From positions 124,001 to 188,000 of the forward strand of contig NZ_SLZR01000001.1 in NCBI RefSeq assembly GCF_004341165.1: 64,000 nt of DNA. The letters run 5' to 3'. Shown one piece after another: positions 7,849 to 34,847 of the stretch; within the stretch, counting starts at the first letter, position 1; each line of letters begins with the position of its first letter. A program made the translations under genes and the position numbers. This stretch comes from Reinekea marinisedimentorum (GTDB taxonomy: Bacteria > Pseudomonadota > Gammaproteobacteria > Pseudomonadales > Natronospirillaceae). The notes below the pieces were generated by a model. That model was not told where the DNA came from and did no database searches. It saw nothing but the letters and a program-made list of their open reading frames with translations.

Positions 7849-7876
7849 TTGCAATTGAAATTTCCACTGCTATCTT
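7849..7876 (+). promoter_or_regulatory. Candidate promoter of sahR-metK
   Basis: TTGCAA (7849-7854) and TATCTT (7871-7876) are 16 bases apart and begin right after the palindrome. Transcription would then start within a few bases of the ATG at 7885, giving a leaderless or nearly leaderless mRNA. That would fit the absence of a ribosome-binding site there. Confidence 0.4.
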
Positions 7877-7884
7877 TCCACGCT

Positions 7885-8817
7885 ATGAATTTGGATCAGT
7901 TACCCGCATTTTTTAAAGCCATCAGCGACCCAACCCGCATCGCCATCCTTCAGGTGTTGGGTACGGGTGCCTATGGCGTCATGGAATTAAGCGAGATGCT
8001 GGCGGTTAAGCAGTCAGGCATGAGTCACCACCTAAAGGTCCTCAGTCAGGCCGGGTGGGTTGAAAAGCGACGCGAAGGCAACACCATTTTTTACCGCCGC
8101 TCGCTCGGCGACACGCTCGCCATGCAGCAGAAGCTGTTCCGCCAGCTGGATACCCAGCCACTGGACCAGGCCGTTTTTGAGCAGCAGCAGCGCATCAGTG
8201 AAGAGCGCCTGCAGGCCGCCAGAAAGTTCTTTATTGAACATGCCGAAGAGTTCGAGCTGCATCAGGAGCGCATCGTACTTTTTGAAAACTACGGCCCCGA
8301 GGCACTGCAATTGCTCGACAGCCTGAACCGATCGCCGCAAAGCAACGTACTGGAAGTTGGCCCGGGCAAAGGTGAGTTTCTCGCCGCCCTGGCGCAGCGT
8401 TTTACCTCGGTGACCGGGCTCGATATTTCACCCGCCATGCTGAAGCAGGCCGATGAACAGGTTCACAACCTTGAAAACGTTGAGCTGATTGAAGGCAACA
8501 CCGAACTGCTGGAGCAACAGGGCCGCCGATTCGACATTATTTTTTACAACATGGTGCTGCATCACGTTCCAATGCCGGAAAGTGAAATTGCCCAGTGCGC
8601 CAAGTTATTGAAACCCAAAGGCCTGCTGATCGTGACCGACCTTTGTCAGCACGAGCAAGAGTGGGCCAGAGAACAGTGCGGCGACCAATGGCTCGGTTTT
8701 GAACCGGACGAATTACACCTGTGGGCGCAGCGCCACGGCTTTAAACACAATCAATCCAGATTTTTAGCGCTTAGAAATGGATTTCAGGTACAGACACAGG
8801 TTTACAGCGCAGCCTGA
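7885..8817 (+). CDS. sahR: SahR-type ArsR regulator with methyltransferase domain
   Basis: This 310-residue protein joins an N-terminal ArsR/SmtB winged helix (about residues 1-95, with helix-turn-helix around LSEMLAVKQSGMSHHLKVLS) to a SAM-dependent methyltransferase-like domain (VLEVGPGKGEFL, GLDISPAML, FYNMVLHHVP). This architecture beside metK, ahcY and metF is that of SahR, a described proteobacterial repressor of the SAM cycle that responds to S-adenosylhomocysteine. I use the ATG at 7885; an in-frame TTG at 7849 would overlap the presumed -35 box. No Shine-Dalgarno sequence is seen. The methyltransferase domain probably acts as the ligand sensor. Confidence 0.85.
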   Translation: MNLDQLPAFFKAISDPTRIAILQVLGTGAYGVMELSEMLAVKQSGMSHHLKVLSQAGWVEKRREGNTIFYRRSLGDTLAMQQKLFRQLDTQPLDQAVFEQQQRISEERLQAARKFFIEHAEEFELHQERIVLFENYGPEALQLLDSLNRSPQSNVLEVGPGKGEFLAALAQRFTSVTGLDISPAMLKQADEQVHNLENVELIEGNTELLEQQGRRFDIIFYNMVLHHVPMPESEIAQCAKLLKPKGLLIVTDLCQHEQEWAREQCGDQWLGFEPDELHLWAQRHGFKHNQSRFLALRNGFQVQTQVYSAA

Positions 8818-8839: not shown

Positions 8840-9994
8840 ATGAGCGAATACAACCTTTTTACTTCTGAGAGCGTTTCAGAGGGTCACCCGGACAAAATGG
8901 CCGACCAGATTTCCGATGCGGTACTGGATGCCATCATCGCCGAAGACCGGCACGCGCGCGTTGCCGTGGAAACACTGGTGAAAACTGGCATGGCGGTCAT
9001 TGCCGGTGAAGTGCGCACCTCGACCTATGTAGATCTGGAAGACATCGTCCGCGACGTCATTCTGGATATCGGCTACAACTCCTCAGATGTAGGCTTCGAC
9101 GGTGCTTCCTGTGCCGTACTGAACGCCATTGGTAAGCAATCTTCTGATATTGCTGTCGGTGTCGATGAAGCAGAAGACAAAGACCTCGGTGCCGGTGACC
9201 AGGGCCTGATGTTCGGCTACGCCACCAACGAAACCGATACGCTGATGCCTGCGCCTATCTACTATTCACACCGGCTGGTCGAGCAACAAGCCAAGCTGCG
9301 TAAAAATGGCAGCCTGCCGTGGTTGCGTCCGGATGCCAAATCACAGGTCACCCTGCGCTATGAAAACGGCAAGCCAGTCGCCGTCGACGCGGTTGTACTG
9401 TCGACTCAACACGATGAAAGCATCAAGCTGGGCGACCTGCGCGAAGCCGTACTGGAAGAAATCATCAAGCCGGTGCTGCCCAGTGAGTGGCTGCACAACG
9501 ACACCCTGTTCCACATCAACCCGACCGGCATCTTCGTCATCGGCGGCCCGGTGGGCGACTGTGGCCTGACCGGCCGTAAGATTATCGTTGATACCTACGG
9601 CGGCATGGCGCGACATGGCGGCGGCGCGTTTTCCGGTAAAGACCCAAGCAAGGTTGACCGTTCAGCCGCCTACGCCGGCCGTTATGTGGCCAAAAACATT
9701 GTTGCTGCCGGCTTAGCCGATAAGTGTGAAATCCAGATTTCTTACGCTATCGGTGTTGCGGAACCAACGTCTATCTCGATCAATACTTTTGGTACCCACA
9801 AAGTTAGCGAAGCAAAAATCGCTGAACTGGTGCGTGAACACTTCGATTTACGTCCACGCGGCATCATCGAAATGCTCGACCTTCGCAAACCTATTTACCG
9901 CCCAACCGCATCTTACGGCCACTTTGGCCGCGAAGGATTCAGCTGGGAGAATACAGATAAAGCTGATGAATTAGCAAAAGCGCTTAATGTGTAA
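8840..9994 (+). CDS. metK: S-adenosylmethionine synthetase
   Basis: MetK makes SAM from methionine and ATP in the cytoplasm. It has 384 residues, the same as E. coli MetK. The ATP-site motif GHPDK is at residues 15-19, [12 protein letters not shown] at 117-128, and the P-loop-like [16 protein letters not shown] lies in the last third. A strong GAGGA ribosome-binding site precedes the ATG, and the gene follows sahR by 22 bases. Its TAA stop codon is part of the first heptamer of a repeat array. It is probably co-transcribed with sahR and repressed through the palindrome at 7820. Confidence 0.98.
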
Positions 9995-10019
9995 GACGTG
10001 AGATGTAAGACGTAAGACG
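9992..10019. repeat. Array of four 7-bp repeats, left side
   Basis: Four heptamers stand head to tail: TAAGACG, TGAGATG, TAAGACG, TAAGACG. The first one begins with the stop codon of metK. The array is in inverted orientation relative to the array at 10397-10421, so the pair frames the four-helix-bundle gene. Confidence 0.9.
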
Positions 10020-10042
10020 AAAAAACAGTCAAGGAAGACTAA

Positions 10043-10417
10043 ATGAATCGAAGCCATCACAGATTAGAAGTCTGGCAGCTATCCATGAATTTGGTGGAAC
10101 AAATTTACGCCATGACTCAAGGGTTCCCTGCAGAAGAAAAGTTTGGATTAACCAACCAAATGAGAAGAGCGGCAGTGAGCATACCTTCGAATATTGCAGA
10201 AGGGTCAGCGAAAGGAAGCAAGAAGGAGTTTTGCAGGTTTTTACTTATAGCTCGCGGCTCTCTGATGGAGCTGGAAACACAAATTGAAATTTCAGAACGT
10301 TTGTCATTAGCACCTAAGCAAAGCAACGTTCTGGATTTACTAAATACGATCTTTGCCAAATTAAACGGGCTGATCAAATCACTTCAGGACGATGGACGTC
10401 TTACATCTTACGTCTAG
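10043..10417 (+). CDS. Four-helix-bundle protein (S23/IVP family)
   Basis: This 124-residue protein belongs to the four-helix-bundle family first known from intervening sequences in 23S rRNA genes (S23/IVP; relatives include the diversity-retroelement accessory protein Avd). Family features are the opening [16 protein letters not shown], the central [19 protein letters not shown] and the following [17 protein letters not shown]. It is not in an rRNA gene here: it interrupts the metK-ahcY spacing, is flanked by inverted 7-bp repeat arrays, and its last codons and TAG stop lie within the right array. AAGGAAGAC supplies a ribosome-binding site. The family's role is unclear; mobility of the whole unit is an inference. 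Confidence 0.88.
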
Positions 10418-10421
10418 CGTC
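10397..10421. repeat. Array of inverted 7-bp repeats, right side
   Basis: CGTCTTA, CATCTTA, CGTCTAG and a partial CGTC follow one another. They are reverse complements of the units at 9992-10019. The first three overlap the 3' end of the four-helix-bundle gene and include its stop codon. Confidence 0.85.
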
Positions 10422-10442
10422 AAACAAATGAGGAACGAATAC

Positions 10443-11825
10443 ATGACAACTTTCACCGACTACAAAGTCGCCGACATCAGCCTGGCCGAATGGGGCCGCA
10501 AAGAAATTGCCATCGCCGAAAGCGAAATGCCGGCCCTGATGGCGCTGCGCCGTAAATACAAAGCGGAACAGCCACTAAAAGACGCCAAAATCATGGGCTG
10601 TATCCACATGACCATTCAGACCGCCGTGTTGATTGAAACCCTGATCGACTTAGGTGCCGAAGTTCGCTGGTCCAGCTGTAACATCTTCTCCACGCAGGAT
10701 CACGCCGCTGCCGCCATTGCCGCCGCCGGTATTCCGGTCTTTGCCTGGAAAGGTGAAACCGAAGAAGAGTTCCTGTGGTGTATCGAGCAGACCATCCTGG
10801 CTGAAAAAGACGGCTCCGACGTTTGGGATGCCAACATCATCCTCGATGACGGCGGCGACCTGACCGAAATGGTTCACAGCAAATACCCGGATCTGCTCAA
10901 CCAGATTCACGGCATTTCCGAAGAAACCACCACCGGCGTTCACCGCCTGCTGGAAATGCTCGAAAATGGCGAACTGAAGGTTCCGGCCATTAACGTCAAC
11001 GACTCGGTTACCAAGTCAAAGAACGACAACAAATACGGCTGCCGTCACTCACTGAACGACGCCATCAAGCGCGCCACCGACCACCTGCTGGCCGGTAAGA
11101 AAGCCCTGGTTGTTGGCTACGGCGACGTCGGTAAAGGCTCTGCCGCTTCCCTGCGTCAGGAAGGCATGATCGTTAAGGTGTCTGAAATTGACCCGATCTG
11201 CGCCATGCAGGCCTGTATGGATGGCTTCGAAGTGGTTTCTCCTTACATCGACGGCAACAACACCGGCGAGCTGAGCTGCATCAACAAAGATCTGCTGGGC
11301 AACACCGACCTGATCGTCACCACCACCGGTAACACCGACGTGTGCGACAAAAACATGCTGCAGGCCGTTAAGAAAGGCGCAGTGGTTTGTAACATCGGCC
11401 ACTTCGACAACGAAATCGACACCGCCTTCATGCGTAAAAACTGGCGCTGGGACGAGATCAAGCCACAGGTTCACCAGATTTACCGCTCTGATGCATCCGA
11501 TGACTTCATTCTGCTGCTGTCTGAAGGCCGCCTGGTGAACTTAGGTAACGCCACCGGCCACCCAAGCCGAGTGATGGATGGCTCCTTTGCCGACCAGGTG
11601 CTGGCTCAGATTTACCTGTACGAGCGCAAGTTTGCCGATCTGCCGGCCGACGAAAAGCCGGCCAACGTCTACGTTAAGGTTCTGCCGAAGAAGCTCGACG
11701 AAGAAGTGGCCGCCGAGATGGTCAAAGGCTTCGGTGGTGTCATTACCACACTGACCGATAAGCAGGCCAACTACATTAATGTACCGGTAGAAGGTCCGTT
11801 CAAGCCGGAAGAATATAAGTACTAA
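10443..11825 (+). CDS. ahcY: Adenosylhomocysteinase
   Basis: This NAD-dependent hydrolase splits S-adenosylhomocysteine into adenosine and homocysteine, which removes the product inhibitor of methyltransferases. It has 460 residues. The NAD-binding [10 protein letters not shown] is at residues 225-234, and the N-terminal substrate region carries [13 protein letters not shown] and [15 protein letters not shown] use the ATG at 10443, which has GAGGAACG upstream; an in-frame ATG at 10392 would overlap the four-helix-bundle gene and the repeat array. It belongs to the SAM-cycle operon and probably shares its SahR control, unless the insertion upstream brings its own promoter. Confidence 0.97.
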
Positions 11826-11827
11826 TT

Positions 11828-11892
11828 TAAGACGTTGAACGTAAGACGTGAGACGGGAAAACAACGTCTTACGTCTAACATCTCACGTCTTA
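11828..11892. repeat. Gene-less hairpin of 4 + 4 heptamer repeats
   Basis: Four heptamers (TAAGACG, TTGAACG, TAAGACG, TGAGACG) at 11828-11855 face four complementary-type units (CGTCTTA, CGTCTAA, CATCTCA, CGTCTTA) at 11865-11892, across a 9-base spacer. The right arm read in reverse is almost identical to the array at 9992-10019. It therefore looks like the same element without the protein gene. RNA from it would fold into a long, imperfect hairpin between ahcY and metF. Confidence 0.9.
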
Positions 11893-11912
11893 CCGAGAGA
11901 CAAGGATAACCT

Positions 11913-12749
11913 ATGAACACTCCAGTCCCAGTCAGTTTCGAGTTCTTCCCGCCCAAAACTGAAGTTGGCTACGAAAAGCTGCTCAAGGCACACGATGAGC
12001 TGAAGGTAGCAAACCCGGAATTCTTCAGCGTCACCTATGGCGCTGGTGGCTCAACGCAGGAACGCACCATTGAAACGGTCATTGAGCTGAACCGCCGTGG
12101 CGTACCGGCGGCACCGCACCTGAGCTGCATTGGCTCGACTAAGGAAACGGTTCACGCCCTGCTGACCCGTTACAAAGAAGCCGGCATTAAACGTATTGTG
12201 GCGCTGCGTGGCGATTTGCCCAGCGGCATGATGGGCACCGGTGGTGATTTCAACTTTGCGTCCGATCTGGTGCGCTATGTTAAGGCAGAGTTCGGTGATG
12301 ACTTCGCCATCGAGGTTGCAGCCTACCCCGAGATGCACCCGCAAGCCGCTAACCTGGATAAAGACATCGACCACTTTGTCGCCAAAGCGAAGGAAGGTGC
12401 CGACAGCGCGATCACGCAGTATTTCTACAATGTGAGTGCCTACAAACACTTCGTCGATGAAGTCCGCAAGCGTGGTTGTGACATCGAGATTGTGCCGGGC
12501 ATCATGCCGATCACCAATTACTCGAACCTGGCGCGCTTCTCAGATGCCTGCGGTGCCGATATTCCGCGCTGGATGCGCAAAGCGCTGGAAACCTGTGGTG
12601 ATGATGTTCAACGCATCCGTTCTATTGGTCTGAACTTTGTTGTGGATCTGTGCAACGAGCTGATTGCCGCCGGCGCACCCAAGCTGCACTTCTACAGCAT
12701 GAACCAGTCTGGCCCGACGCTGGCAATTCTGGAAAAGCTGAATAAATAA
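11913..12749 (+). CDS. metF: Methylenetetrahydrofolate reductase
   Basis: MetF reduces 5,10-methylene-THF to 5-methyl-THF with FAD, supplying the methyl group that regenerates methionine from homocysteine. The 278-residue TIM-barrel protein shows FEFFPPKT near the N-terminus, FSVTYGAGGS, ALRGDLPSG, AAYPEMHP, ITQYFYNV and a C-terminal LHFYSMNQ, all typical of the family. AAGGATAAC precedes the ATG. It is the last gene of the SAM-cycle cluster and converges with the small gene at 12756, leaving a 6-base gap. Confidence 0.97.
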   Translation: MNTPVPVSFEFFPPKTEVGYEKLLKAHDELKVANPEFFSVTYGAGGSTQERTIETVIELNRRGVPAAPHLSCIGSTKETVHALLTRYKEAGIKRIVALRGDLPSGMMGTGGDFNFASDLVRYVKAEFGDDFAIEVAAYPEMHPQAANLDKDIDHFVAKAKEGADSAITQYFYNVSAYKHFVDEVRKRGCDIEIVPGIMPITNYSNLARFSDACGADIPRWMRKALETCGDDVQRIRSIGLNFVVDLCNELIAAGAPKLHFYSMNQSGPTLAILEKLNK

Positions 12750-33662: not shown

Positions 33663-34847
33663 TCAGGCGTCAGATTTCGGATCGAACAGGCTGCGACCTT
33701 CGGATTCAGCCGCTGGATTAACGGCAGGTACCGGTGCTGGCTCAGCTTTTGGTACTTCCGGAGCCGGCGCAGGTGCTGGCTTCGGTTCGGCCTTCACAGG
33801 CTCAGCTTTAACCACCGGGGCCGGTTTGACTGCCGCAGGCTCAACGGCTGCCTTTGGCGCTTCTGCTGTGACCGCAACCTTCTTAACAGGAGCCTTTCGG
33901 GCAACGACCTTTTTCGCCGCTGGCTTAGCCGCCGGTTTTTCTGTCGTTTTAGCGGCAGGCTTTTTAGCTACCGGCTTTTTCGCTGCAGGCGCTTTCTTGG
34001 TCGCCGGCTTCTTAGTTGCTGGCTTGGTGGCTGCTTTAGTCGCCGTTTTCTTGGCTGCAGTTTTGGTTGTGGTCGTTTTAGTGGTGGTAGCTTTTTTCGC
34101 TGCTGGTTTGGCGGCAGTTTTTCGGGCAGTGGGCTTAGTGGCTGTTTTTCGGGCCGTTGATTTGGCTGCAGTTTTACGGGTTGCTGGTTTAGCTGCCGCT
34201 TTCTTTGCTTCCGCGCGGGCTTTCGCTGCCGCTTTTCTGGCTTCCGCTTTTTCTTTCTTGGCGGCTTCTGCGGCTGCTTTCTTCTCTGCCATGGCTGCTT
34301 TTCTGGCTTCGGCTTTAGCACGCGCTTCACGTTCTTTGTCTTCTGCTTTACGCAGGCGTTCCAAACCTTTTGCTACCTTAGCCGCAAGCTTCATTTCAAA
34401 CTTGGCAGTCGCTAAGGCACTCTTCGCTGTTGCCAGCTCAGTTTTCAGTGCGGACAGTTCATCCTTTGCTGCGGCCAGAGCTGCAGTGGCAGTATCGAGA
34501 GATTTAACGGCCGCGGCTGTTTTTGATGTACGGGCACGCAACGCTGCTTTCTGCTTTCGCTCTGTCGCTTTTTTGGTTTTGGTCGTAGCGGTTGCTACTT
34601 TTTTTGCAAGCGCAGTAATCTGCTTTTCTGTAGTGGTTACTTCTTTTGCCTGCGCAGCAGCGAAGGATGCTTCCAGTTTCAGCAATTCAGCTTTGATTTG
34701 GCTGGCAGCAGAGGCTGCTACTGTTTTAGCAGGTGCTTTTTTTGCTACAGGTTTTTTTGCGGCGGTTTTGCGAGTAGTTGTTGCCCGCGTTTTTTTTGCA
34801 GCTGCAGCTGCTGGTTTTCGAGTAGTTTGTTTTTTAGCAACGGCCAT
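33663..34847 (-). CDS. AlgP-like histone H1-type protein
   Basis: This 394-residue protein is made largely of Ala, Lys, Thr and Pro in short repeats (KPAAK, RKTAAK and KKPA types) with a central coiled-coil-like region of about 150 residues (LAAAKDELSALKTELATAKSALA). The composition and repeats recall AlgP (AlgR3) of Pseudomonas and eukaryotic H1 tails, so it should bind DNA non-specifically through the Lys-rich tail. The nearby algQ/rsd gene strengthens the AlgP comparison. The ATG at 34847 has GAGGA upstream; a GTG at 34862 is also in frame. Repeat number is likely to vary between strains. Confidence 0.8.
   Translation of the reverse strand: MAVAKKQTTRKPAAAAAKKTRATTTRKTAAKKPVAKKAPAKTVAASAASQIKAELLKLEASFAAAQAKEVTTTEKQITALAKKVATATTKTKKATERKQKAALRARTSKTAAAVKSLDTATAALAAAKDELSALKTELATAKSALATAKFEMKLAAKVAKGLERLRKAEDKEREARAKAEARKAAMAEKKAAAEAAKKEKAEARKAAAKARAEAKKAAAKPATRKTAAKSTARKTATKPTARKTAAKPAAKKATTTKTTTTKTAAKKTATKAATKPATKKPATKKAPAAKKPVAKKPAAKTTEKPAAKPAAKKVVARKAPVKKVAVTAEAPKAAVEPAAVKPAPVVKAEPVKAEPKPAPAPAPEVPKAEPAPVPAVNPAAESEGRSLFDPKSDA

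Follow-up and report, generated by a model that had tools for sequence, protein, structure and literature searches.

The window considered here is the whole 64-kb stretch of Reinekea marinisedimentorum DNA. Two successive gaps of one operon, between metK and ahcY and between ahcY and metF, contain tandem heptamer arrays (Table 1), and the first of them, which lies outside any 23S rRNA gene, also harbours a small S23/IVP gene. The left array of this unit consists of GTAAGAC, GTGAGAT, GTAAGAC and GTAAGAC followed by a single G. The right array is made up of about 2.7 clean units and one degenerate unit (lag-7 score 12); it shares the final codons and stop (10415-10417) with the IVP ORF, and 8 nt separate its end from the ribosome-binding site of ahcY. 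Both arms form an inverted repeat (20 nt at 95%, or 33 nt at 79%), and the lag-7 segments and their orientation confirm the original prediction that this gene is located between heptamer arrays facing opposite directions. Upstream of metK (7849-8817) there is a gene in which an ArsR-type DNA-binding domain is fused to a methyltransferase domain, and which we take to resemble the SahR regulator.

Table 1. Genes and repeat arrays of the metK-ahcY-metF region (positions in the window)
Feature	Position	Strand	Remarks
metK, upstream host gene	8840..9994	+	TIGR01034
Left heptamer array, GTNAGAY, about 4 units	9991..10022	+	Best lag-7 segment, from the metK stop codon (TAA, 9992-9994)
Shine-Dalgarno-like AAGGAAG	10031..10037	+	5 nt upstream of the IVP start codon; read from the sequence
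S23/IVP gene (23S_rRNA_IVP, four helix bundle), 124 aa	10043..10417	+	PF05635, TIGR02436, predicted structure
Right heptamer array, inverted with respect to the left one	10396..~10421	-	Overlaps the IVP ORF at its 3' end
ahcY, downstream host gene	10443..11825	+	TIGR00936; ribosome-binding site GAGGAACG at 10430-10437
Inverted pair of GTNAGAY arrays (same heptamer) without a gene, in the ahcY-metF gap	~11827..11893	.	Predicted hairpin fold, z -5.06
metF, next operon gene	11913..12749	+	TIGR00676

A chance origin of the arrays was ruled out by simulation. Two lag-7 segments with a score of at least 13 are present in the 64-kb window (the unit described above and 11864-11893, which belongs to the gene-less pair that the original prediction leaves unmentioned), whereas 100 simulated Markov-1 windows contained 0.04 on average and 1 at most; besides, the window holds one inverted pair of 20 nt, mismatched at no more than one position and with arms 100-600 bp apart, against none in 30 simulations. 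Ordinary transposon ends around a transposase were ruled out as well: there is no transposase or integrase ORF between the arrays, where the IVP gene is the only plus-strand ORF of at least 80 aa and the minus-strand ORF at 10117-10377 is antisense to it. No Rfam element was matched anywhere in the window. When the transcript 9985-10440 is folded in silico, the arms are predicted to pair around the whole ORF (MFE -125.3 versus -103.3 for shuffles, z -3.94). Elsewhere in the window there are a 27-bp tandem repeat of about 3.5 units (34099-34193) and other short periodic stretches at 33947-34193.

The protein encoded by the unit matches PF05635 with 123.8 bits (cut-off 33.8, E 4.2e-36) and TIGR02436, "four helix bundle protein", with 124.9 bits (cut-off 24, E 1.5e-36). 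Its AlphaFold2 model (pLDDT 91.8) is a four-helix bundle whose best match in the PDB is XCC0516 (2gsc; TM 0.82-0.87, about 51% identity), and another S23 protein, 2rld, is matched too. A weaker structural match is Avd of the diversity-generating retroelements (DGRs) (4dwl; TM 0.62-0.69, 10-13% identity, Foldseek E above 0.1), a link at which a distant PHROG match (phrog_3206, E 2.5e-4) also hints. The idea of a defence gene was rejected, as no PADLOC family was matched at E 0.1 by either of the two IVPs of this genome.

Related to the dispersal of the repeats, the window heptamer pattern gives 177 matches in the genome (114 forward, 63 reverse), and the reversed-pattern control gives none. In the 20 stretches inspected for arrays of the window type, all 29 such arrays are placed between ORFs and display no orientation preference with respect to neighbouring genes; the gene-less arrays of this genome are not biased towards the transcribed strand, which counts against the reading as a mobile element. 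The second IVP gene of the genome lies on another contig (C20), between gmd and fcl, and is enclosed by tandem heptamers in both orientations; their unit, TAGATGC/TAGCATC and relatives, is unlike that of the window. A de novo census covering 400 kb yielded 7 arrays of period 7 scoring at least 16, and all 7 consist of the units that flank the two IVP genes, some of them mixed (by consensus and by eye). Copies elsewhere in the genome, as the original prediction had anticipated, therefore exist both as pattern matches and as a second IVP gene with its own arrays.

The comparison with relatives reveals a patchy distribution. In 37 related genomes the window heptamer pattern is found 0-7 times each, versus 177 in the genome under study, and IVP genes are present in 9 of the 38 genomes, this one included. 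Three of the six congeners (G002, G003, G005) have neither gene nor array in the metK-ahcY gap (lag-7 scores 4, 5 and 3 over 420 bp); the other three (G001, G004, G006) have no gene there, show short arrays of a different, AGCTGC-type heptamer (scores 12, 10 and 17), and carry an IVP gene elsewhere in the genome. A fixed vertical feature of the operon is consequently ruled out for the genus, and the empty gaps of half of the congeners support the proposal that the unit is small and mobile with the repeats as its ends; relatives do not all carry the same gene and arrays at the same place. In a member of another genus (G015) the same gap is occupied by an IVP gene with AAGCTTG-type arms, and in one of another family (G222) by an IVP gene that is interrupted by a stop codon and whose flanks show no detectable arrays. 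Taken together, these states mean either repeated occupation of the gap or repeated loss of the element. The IVPs located there in three genera form no reliable grouping, in an unsupported tree. With regard to ahcY-metF, a reading by eye that placed arrays in all IVP-bearing congeners was dropped after lag-7 scoring: the score of G001 (6) is no better than those of the array-free congeners (6, 3 and 6), and G004 and G006 reach 8.

Two sets of loci were used to analyse IVP genes at large: the 80 best of 591 loci obtained by scanning bacterial and archaeal species, 75 of these 80 having enough flank, and 64 loci from a phylum-wide search in which 62 of 398 genomes were positive, with enough flank in 62 loci. 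Of 40 stretches, L201-L205 (gene fragments) were left out, and L192 duplicates L191. Period-7 arrays occur within 300 bp of the gene at 33/75 left and 39/75 right flanks of the first set, against 50/1360 control windows taken from the same loci, and at 25/62 left and 33/62 right flanks of the second one, against 9/342. Arrays of period 8 are less frequent (8/75 on each side versus 6/1360 controls, and 3/62 on each side versus 0/342), and periods other than multiples of 7 or 8 never appear at more than 2 loci per side in either set. The arms are mainly inverted. Comparison of the left flank with the reverse complement of the right one, which took in 144 of 152 loci, reaches a score of at least 16 in 85 of them (14/432 mismatched pairs), and the comparison in direct orientation does so in 23 (0/432); the window locus scores only 11 in this test because its right arm overlaps the ORF, which the test cut away. 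Where both arms have a clear unit, agreement in at least 5 of 7 positions is inverted in 26 of 45 loci and direct in 1. On the sense strand the upstream units are G-rich (0.35) and C-poor (0.14), and stop codons are mildly enriched in the sense unit (68/112 versus 57.3 expected, sd 4.4, related units being non-independent). Unit length, 7 or 8, is not a clean marker of protein clades, with 9 changes on a tree of 115 columns with many unresolved forks, the shuffled mean being 12.5.

According to their record titles, the best 80 of 591 loci come from Pseudomonadota, Bacteroidota, Acidobacteriota, Nitrospirota and Patescibacteria, among other phyla, and include one locus, with arms, from a Methanophagales archaeon. 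Phage cargo was discarded, since none of 50,697 phage records gave a match at E 1e-5. The IVP is matched by 33 plasmid records, mainly from cyanobacteria, and arms are present on both sides in 5 of 6 cyanobacterial plasmid stretches (two of the five being near-duplicates). On plasmid pANA02 of Anabaena sp. 90 (L365), a type I-D CRISPR operon has an IVP gene with CAGGTGA arms (2489-2857 of the stretch) lying between its cas6 and cas4 genes. Calothrix brevissima NIES-22 has the same IVP unit on two plasmids (L361 and L362), within a 3.6-kb block that is 97.5% identical between them. In plasmid pNe_5 of Nostoc edaphicum (L363, 2489-2857) an IVP gene with AGTAGGG arms lies between the ribonucleotide reductase subunit genes nrdA and nrdB and is antisense to both of them, which counts against the reading of these units as intercistronic elements.

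The original prediction regarded a metabolic operon as an unusual setting for an IVP gene; this did not hold. The flanks match 23S rRNA in only 3 of 152 IVP loci (L048 and L191 lie inside 23S rRNA according to Rfam, with tandem 7-mers at both ends), and many of the loci are found between genes of related function. Recurrent gaps are gmd-fcl, nuoC-nuoD, sdhA-sdhB, cysD-cysN and metK-ahcY, the names coming from locus clusters in which one example per gene pair was named by NCBIfam. The IVP gene is co-oriented with both neighbours in 98/136 loci versus 115/195 control triplets, a modest difference (p 0.015) based on a crude gene caller that picked an antisense ORF over nuoC upstream of one locus (L079). 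Co-orientation is no stronger where the arms are clear (56/80 versus 42/56), which tells against a mobile element seated between co-transcribed genes.

The states that a single gap can take were followed in the genus g141, at a site (site A) between an acyl-CoA-dehydrogenase-like gene, an identity that is our own reading as there was no NCBIfam match at 1e-20, and a 3-hydroxyisobutyrate dehydrogenase gene. Among the 30 gaps read, from the most similar of 61 genomes, 14 are clean and empty, 11 hold a full IVP gene and 2 an unrelated insert; the remaining ones are a remnant, a GTAGTGA array pair without gene and a degraded IVP gene with octamer arms. Clear GTAGGCA arms accompany 10 of the 11 full units, those of L272 having decayed, and the stop codon of the upstream gene marks the beginning of the arrays. 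Most differences among the 11 ORFs fall on third codon positions (549, 334 and 1857 differences at the three positions), which indicates purifying selection. As the divergence of these IVPs tracks that of the upstream gene (rho 0.64), inheritance at site A appears to be mainly vertical, with losses, which weighs against the reading as a mobile element. The remnant (L270, in G487) retains the IVP gene's 3' end together with one CTGCCTA unit and shows decay in place. The unrelated insert (L267 and L271) measures about 55-60 bp, starts near ATGCATGTCGCCCAAAAGTGCGCAGCGGTTTTGGG and seems to be another dispersed intercistronic element.

Array dispersal is only loosely tied to an intact cognate IVP gene, which counts against the reading as a mobile element. 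GTAGGCA matches elsewhere in the genome differ between the 11 full and the 14 empty genomes with p 0.08, empty genomes having up to 101, and octamer matches between a set of 6 genomes and one of 10 with p 0.095, two genomes without IVP-B having 53 and 73. Over 398 genomes, GTAGGCA arrays are present in 10 of 62 with an IVP gene and in 5 of 336 without it, a comparison uncorrected for kinship. Random stretches yielded 3 arrays in 10 IVP-bearing genomes and none in 10 others, in an under-powered sample, and the de novo census found no array in 100 kb of the IVP-bearing congener G001.

A family search in 8 g141 genomes gave 14 IVP places, 13 of which could be read; L345 was left out because the motif was absent. 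These places fall into four additional groups that each have a unit of their own: the octamer TAGGGCAG in group B, GTGAATG in group C, GCGAATA/GCGAGTA in group D and the octamer GAATTGAA/GAACTGAG in group E. Several groups coexist in one genome, each keeping its own unit (B and C in G447, B and D in G484, and B, D and E in G485). The degraded group-A IVP gene of G447 has as both arms the octamer of the intact IVP-B of the same genome, an arm exchange that supports the reading as a mobile element. G476 has GTAGTGA arms at site A yet only a group-E IVP, which counters a simple rule linking unit and protein.

When 127 loci were compared in pairs, which are non-independent, the unit tended to track the IVP protein rather than the site. 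For loci at different sites, the unit is shared within one mismatch in 114 of 5132 pairs (2.2%) below 50% protein identity, 54 of 1988 (2.7%) at 50-60%, 30 of 271 (11%) at 60-70% and 7 of 14 at 70-80%. For loci sharing one site, these bins give 1/26, 3/42, 8/26 and 7/14, and pairs with 80% identity or more give 25/28. One locus, L079, takes part in 5 of the 7 different-site matches of the highest bin, and clear transposition thus rests on one event. This locus is located in the nuoC-nuoD gap, where IVPs of several lineages are found with the units GTAGTGA, GTAGGCA-like, GCGAATA, GGCGAAT and GTGAATG, every array starting from the nuoC stop codon. L079, with the unit GCGAATA, is 76-79% identical to group-D proteins that have the same unit in a different operon. 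Its DNA homology with the group-D locus L339 covers 1434-1911 in the former and 1438-1902 in the latter, where the upstream genes end with stop codons at 1431-1433 and 1433-1435 and the following genes begin at 1921 and 1912, respectively; in other words, the homology runs from just past the upstream stop codon to 9 bp short of the next start codon. This is the trace that a gene and its arms would leave if they moved as one. The notion of a small mobile unit gains support from it, as one IVP type of another genus appears in two operons that are unrelated and have homology over the unit only.

On balance, the unit at 9991-10421 is probably one copy of a widespread intercistronic element that has no transposase and whose ends are the arrays. 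Such an element would consist of a small S23/IVP gene for which no separate promoter is evident, inside inverted arrays of 7-nt (elsewhere 8-nt) units, and would extend from the stop codon of the upstream gene to the ribosome-binding site of the downstream one, between co-transcribed genes. In the transcript the arms are predicted to pair, in such a way that the stem would close off the IVP ORF, and by analogy with the published Coxiella 23S intervening sequence (IVS) this stem could be cut by RNase III. The IVP, an Avd-like bundle of which a Xanthomonas relative is a pentamer, may recognise the array that belongs to it, as RNA or as single-stranded DNA, and may take part in copying the element, gene included or not, to further intercistronic gaps by means of host enzymes. 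No catalytic activity is visible in the IVP protein, and this counts against such a role. A broader proposal, held tentatively and at slightly less than an even chance, is that these units constitute a new class of mobile elements of about 0.4-0.5 kb, lacking a transposase, with ends of 7- or 8-nt arrays matched to a four-helix-bundle protein and seated in gaps between stop codon and ribosome-binding site of co-transcribed gene pairs. The protein would spread the element and seed gene-less pairs; the 23S IVS would be the form inserted in rRNA, and the heptamers of Xanthomonas and cyanobacteria would be gene-less copies.

It is rather unlikely that the arrays came first, spreading by slippage and hairpin-primed copying by polymerases, with the IVP gene as a cargo that landed in them or recombined between them. 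Such an order of events is suggested by the gene-less arrays of the genome under study, which far exceed its IVP genes (177 pattern matches versus 2) and include two-unit mixed arrays, by the up to 101 GTAGGCA matches of some genomes devoid of IVP-A, and by the Xanthomonas arrays, which are described as having no connection with mobile elements (PMC4692102). Nevertheless, units agree with the identity of the IVP protein and not with the site, arrays flank IVP genes of diverse phyla much more often than they occur in control windows taken from these loci, and the excess of GTAGGCA arrays in IVP-bearing genomes, although uncorrected for kinship (10/62 versus 5/336), points in the same direction.

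A service to the host, in which stem and gene would tune the ratio of the co-transcribed genes through processing, stability or translational coupling, appears very unlikely. The ORF is under purifying selection, the predicted stems are stable and the gaps (metK-ahcY, gmd-fcl, nuoC-nuoD, sdhA-sdhB and cysD-cysN) separate co-functional genes, as would be expected from such a function; however, the unit is patchy, with clean empty gaps at 14 of 30 orthologous sites and in 3 of 6 congeners, and a single gap can hold different IVPs with different units. Extremely improbable is a purely vertical history of inheritance, loss and genome-wide concerted drift of the unit, in which the gene never transposes. 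At site A the IVP follows the upstream gene (rho 0.64), same-site elements whose proteins are at least 80% identical mostly share the unit (25/28), and the units of the window family are alike by eye (TAGCTGC, TAGATGC), all of which would be compatible with it. Against it stand L079 and the D-type loci, which in different operons have a common protein type, a common unit and homology limited to the element, the several IVP lineages and units of the nuoC-nuoD gap, and the metK-ahcY IVPs of three genera, which are not reliably grouped in an unsupported tree.

If the interpretation as a mobile element is true, it joins three matters that have been considered apart: the unexplained IVS of 23S rRNA with its S23 gene, the unexplained intergenic heptamers, and a common small protein without assigned function. 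It would also provide a testable claim for the S23/IVP protein, namely recognition of its own 7- or 8-nt unit, and would add to the known mobile elements one that spreads without a recognisable transposase.

Among known systems, REPIN/RAYT resembles the IVP arrays in that a gene is placed between inverted short repeats and many inverted copies lack the gene. RAYT is a transposase and its ends are single REP hairpins, whereas the IVP protein has, to our knowledge, no known catalytic activity and the ends of its unit are tandem arrays of a variable unit. Avd of the DGRs is related to the IVP by a distant sequence match and a similar fold, but the IVP unit contains no reverse transcriptase, template or variable repeat, and its neighbours are metK and ahcY. 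The available text of one paper already remarks on the link between IVP and DGRs (PMC10053308), and a 23S rRNA IVP is listed in a figure legend in the accessible part of a CRISPR-discovery paper (PMC10910872).

The 23S rRNA IVSs of Leptospira and Coxiella have the same protein family and an inverted terminal stem around the ORF, like the window unit, and differ from it in their location, in rRNA instead of an mRNA gap. According to the available part of the Coxiella account, tandem GACAGAT heptamers lie upstream of the S23 ORF, the terminal stem has 28 bp and RNase III cleaves where the first repeat begins; that part contains no description of dispersed arrays without a gene or of units matched to the protein (PMC4990558). 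Intergenic heptamers are known from Xanthomonas (GGGAATC), Nostoc (STRR-like) and Beggiatoaceae (TAACTGA). As far as the accessible text of these papers goes, they are tandem and mostly intergenic, often form convergent inverted pairs near or over stop codons, and have been proposed to act as G-quadruplexes or in translation, with no mention of an S23 or four-helix gene (PMC4692102, PMC4679880). In the open-access papers no work linking S23/IVP genes in general to heptamer arrays was found. The parts are known, that is, the S23 genes of rRNA IVSs, the Coxiella heptamers and the repeats of Xanthomonas, Nostoc and Beggiatoaceae, and the general link between S23 genes and arrays is apparently undescribed. 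Two IVP loci of Xanthomonas (L093 and L101) have flanking arrays of GGGAATC type, as in the intergenic repeats of this genus, and the IVP genes of the Nostoc and Anabaena plasmids are flanked by heptamers.
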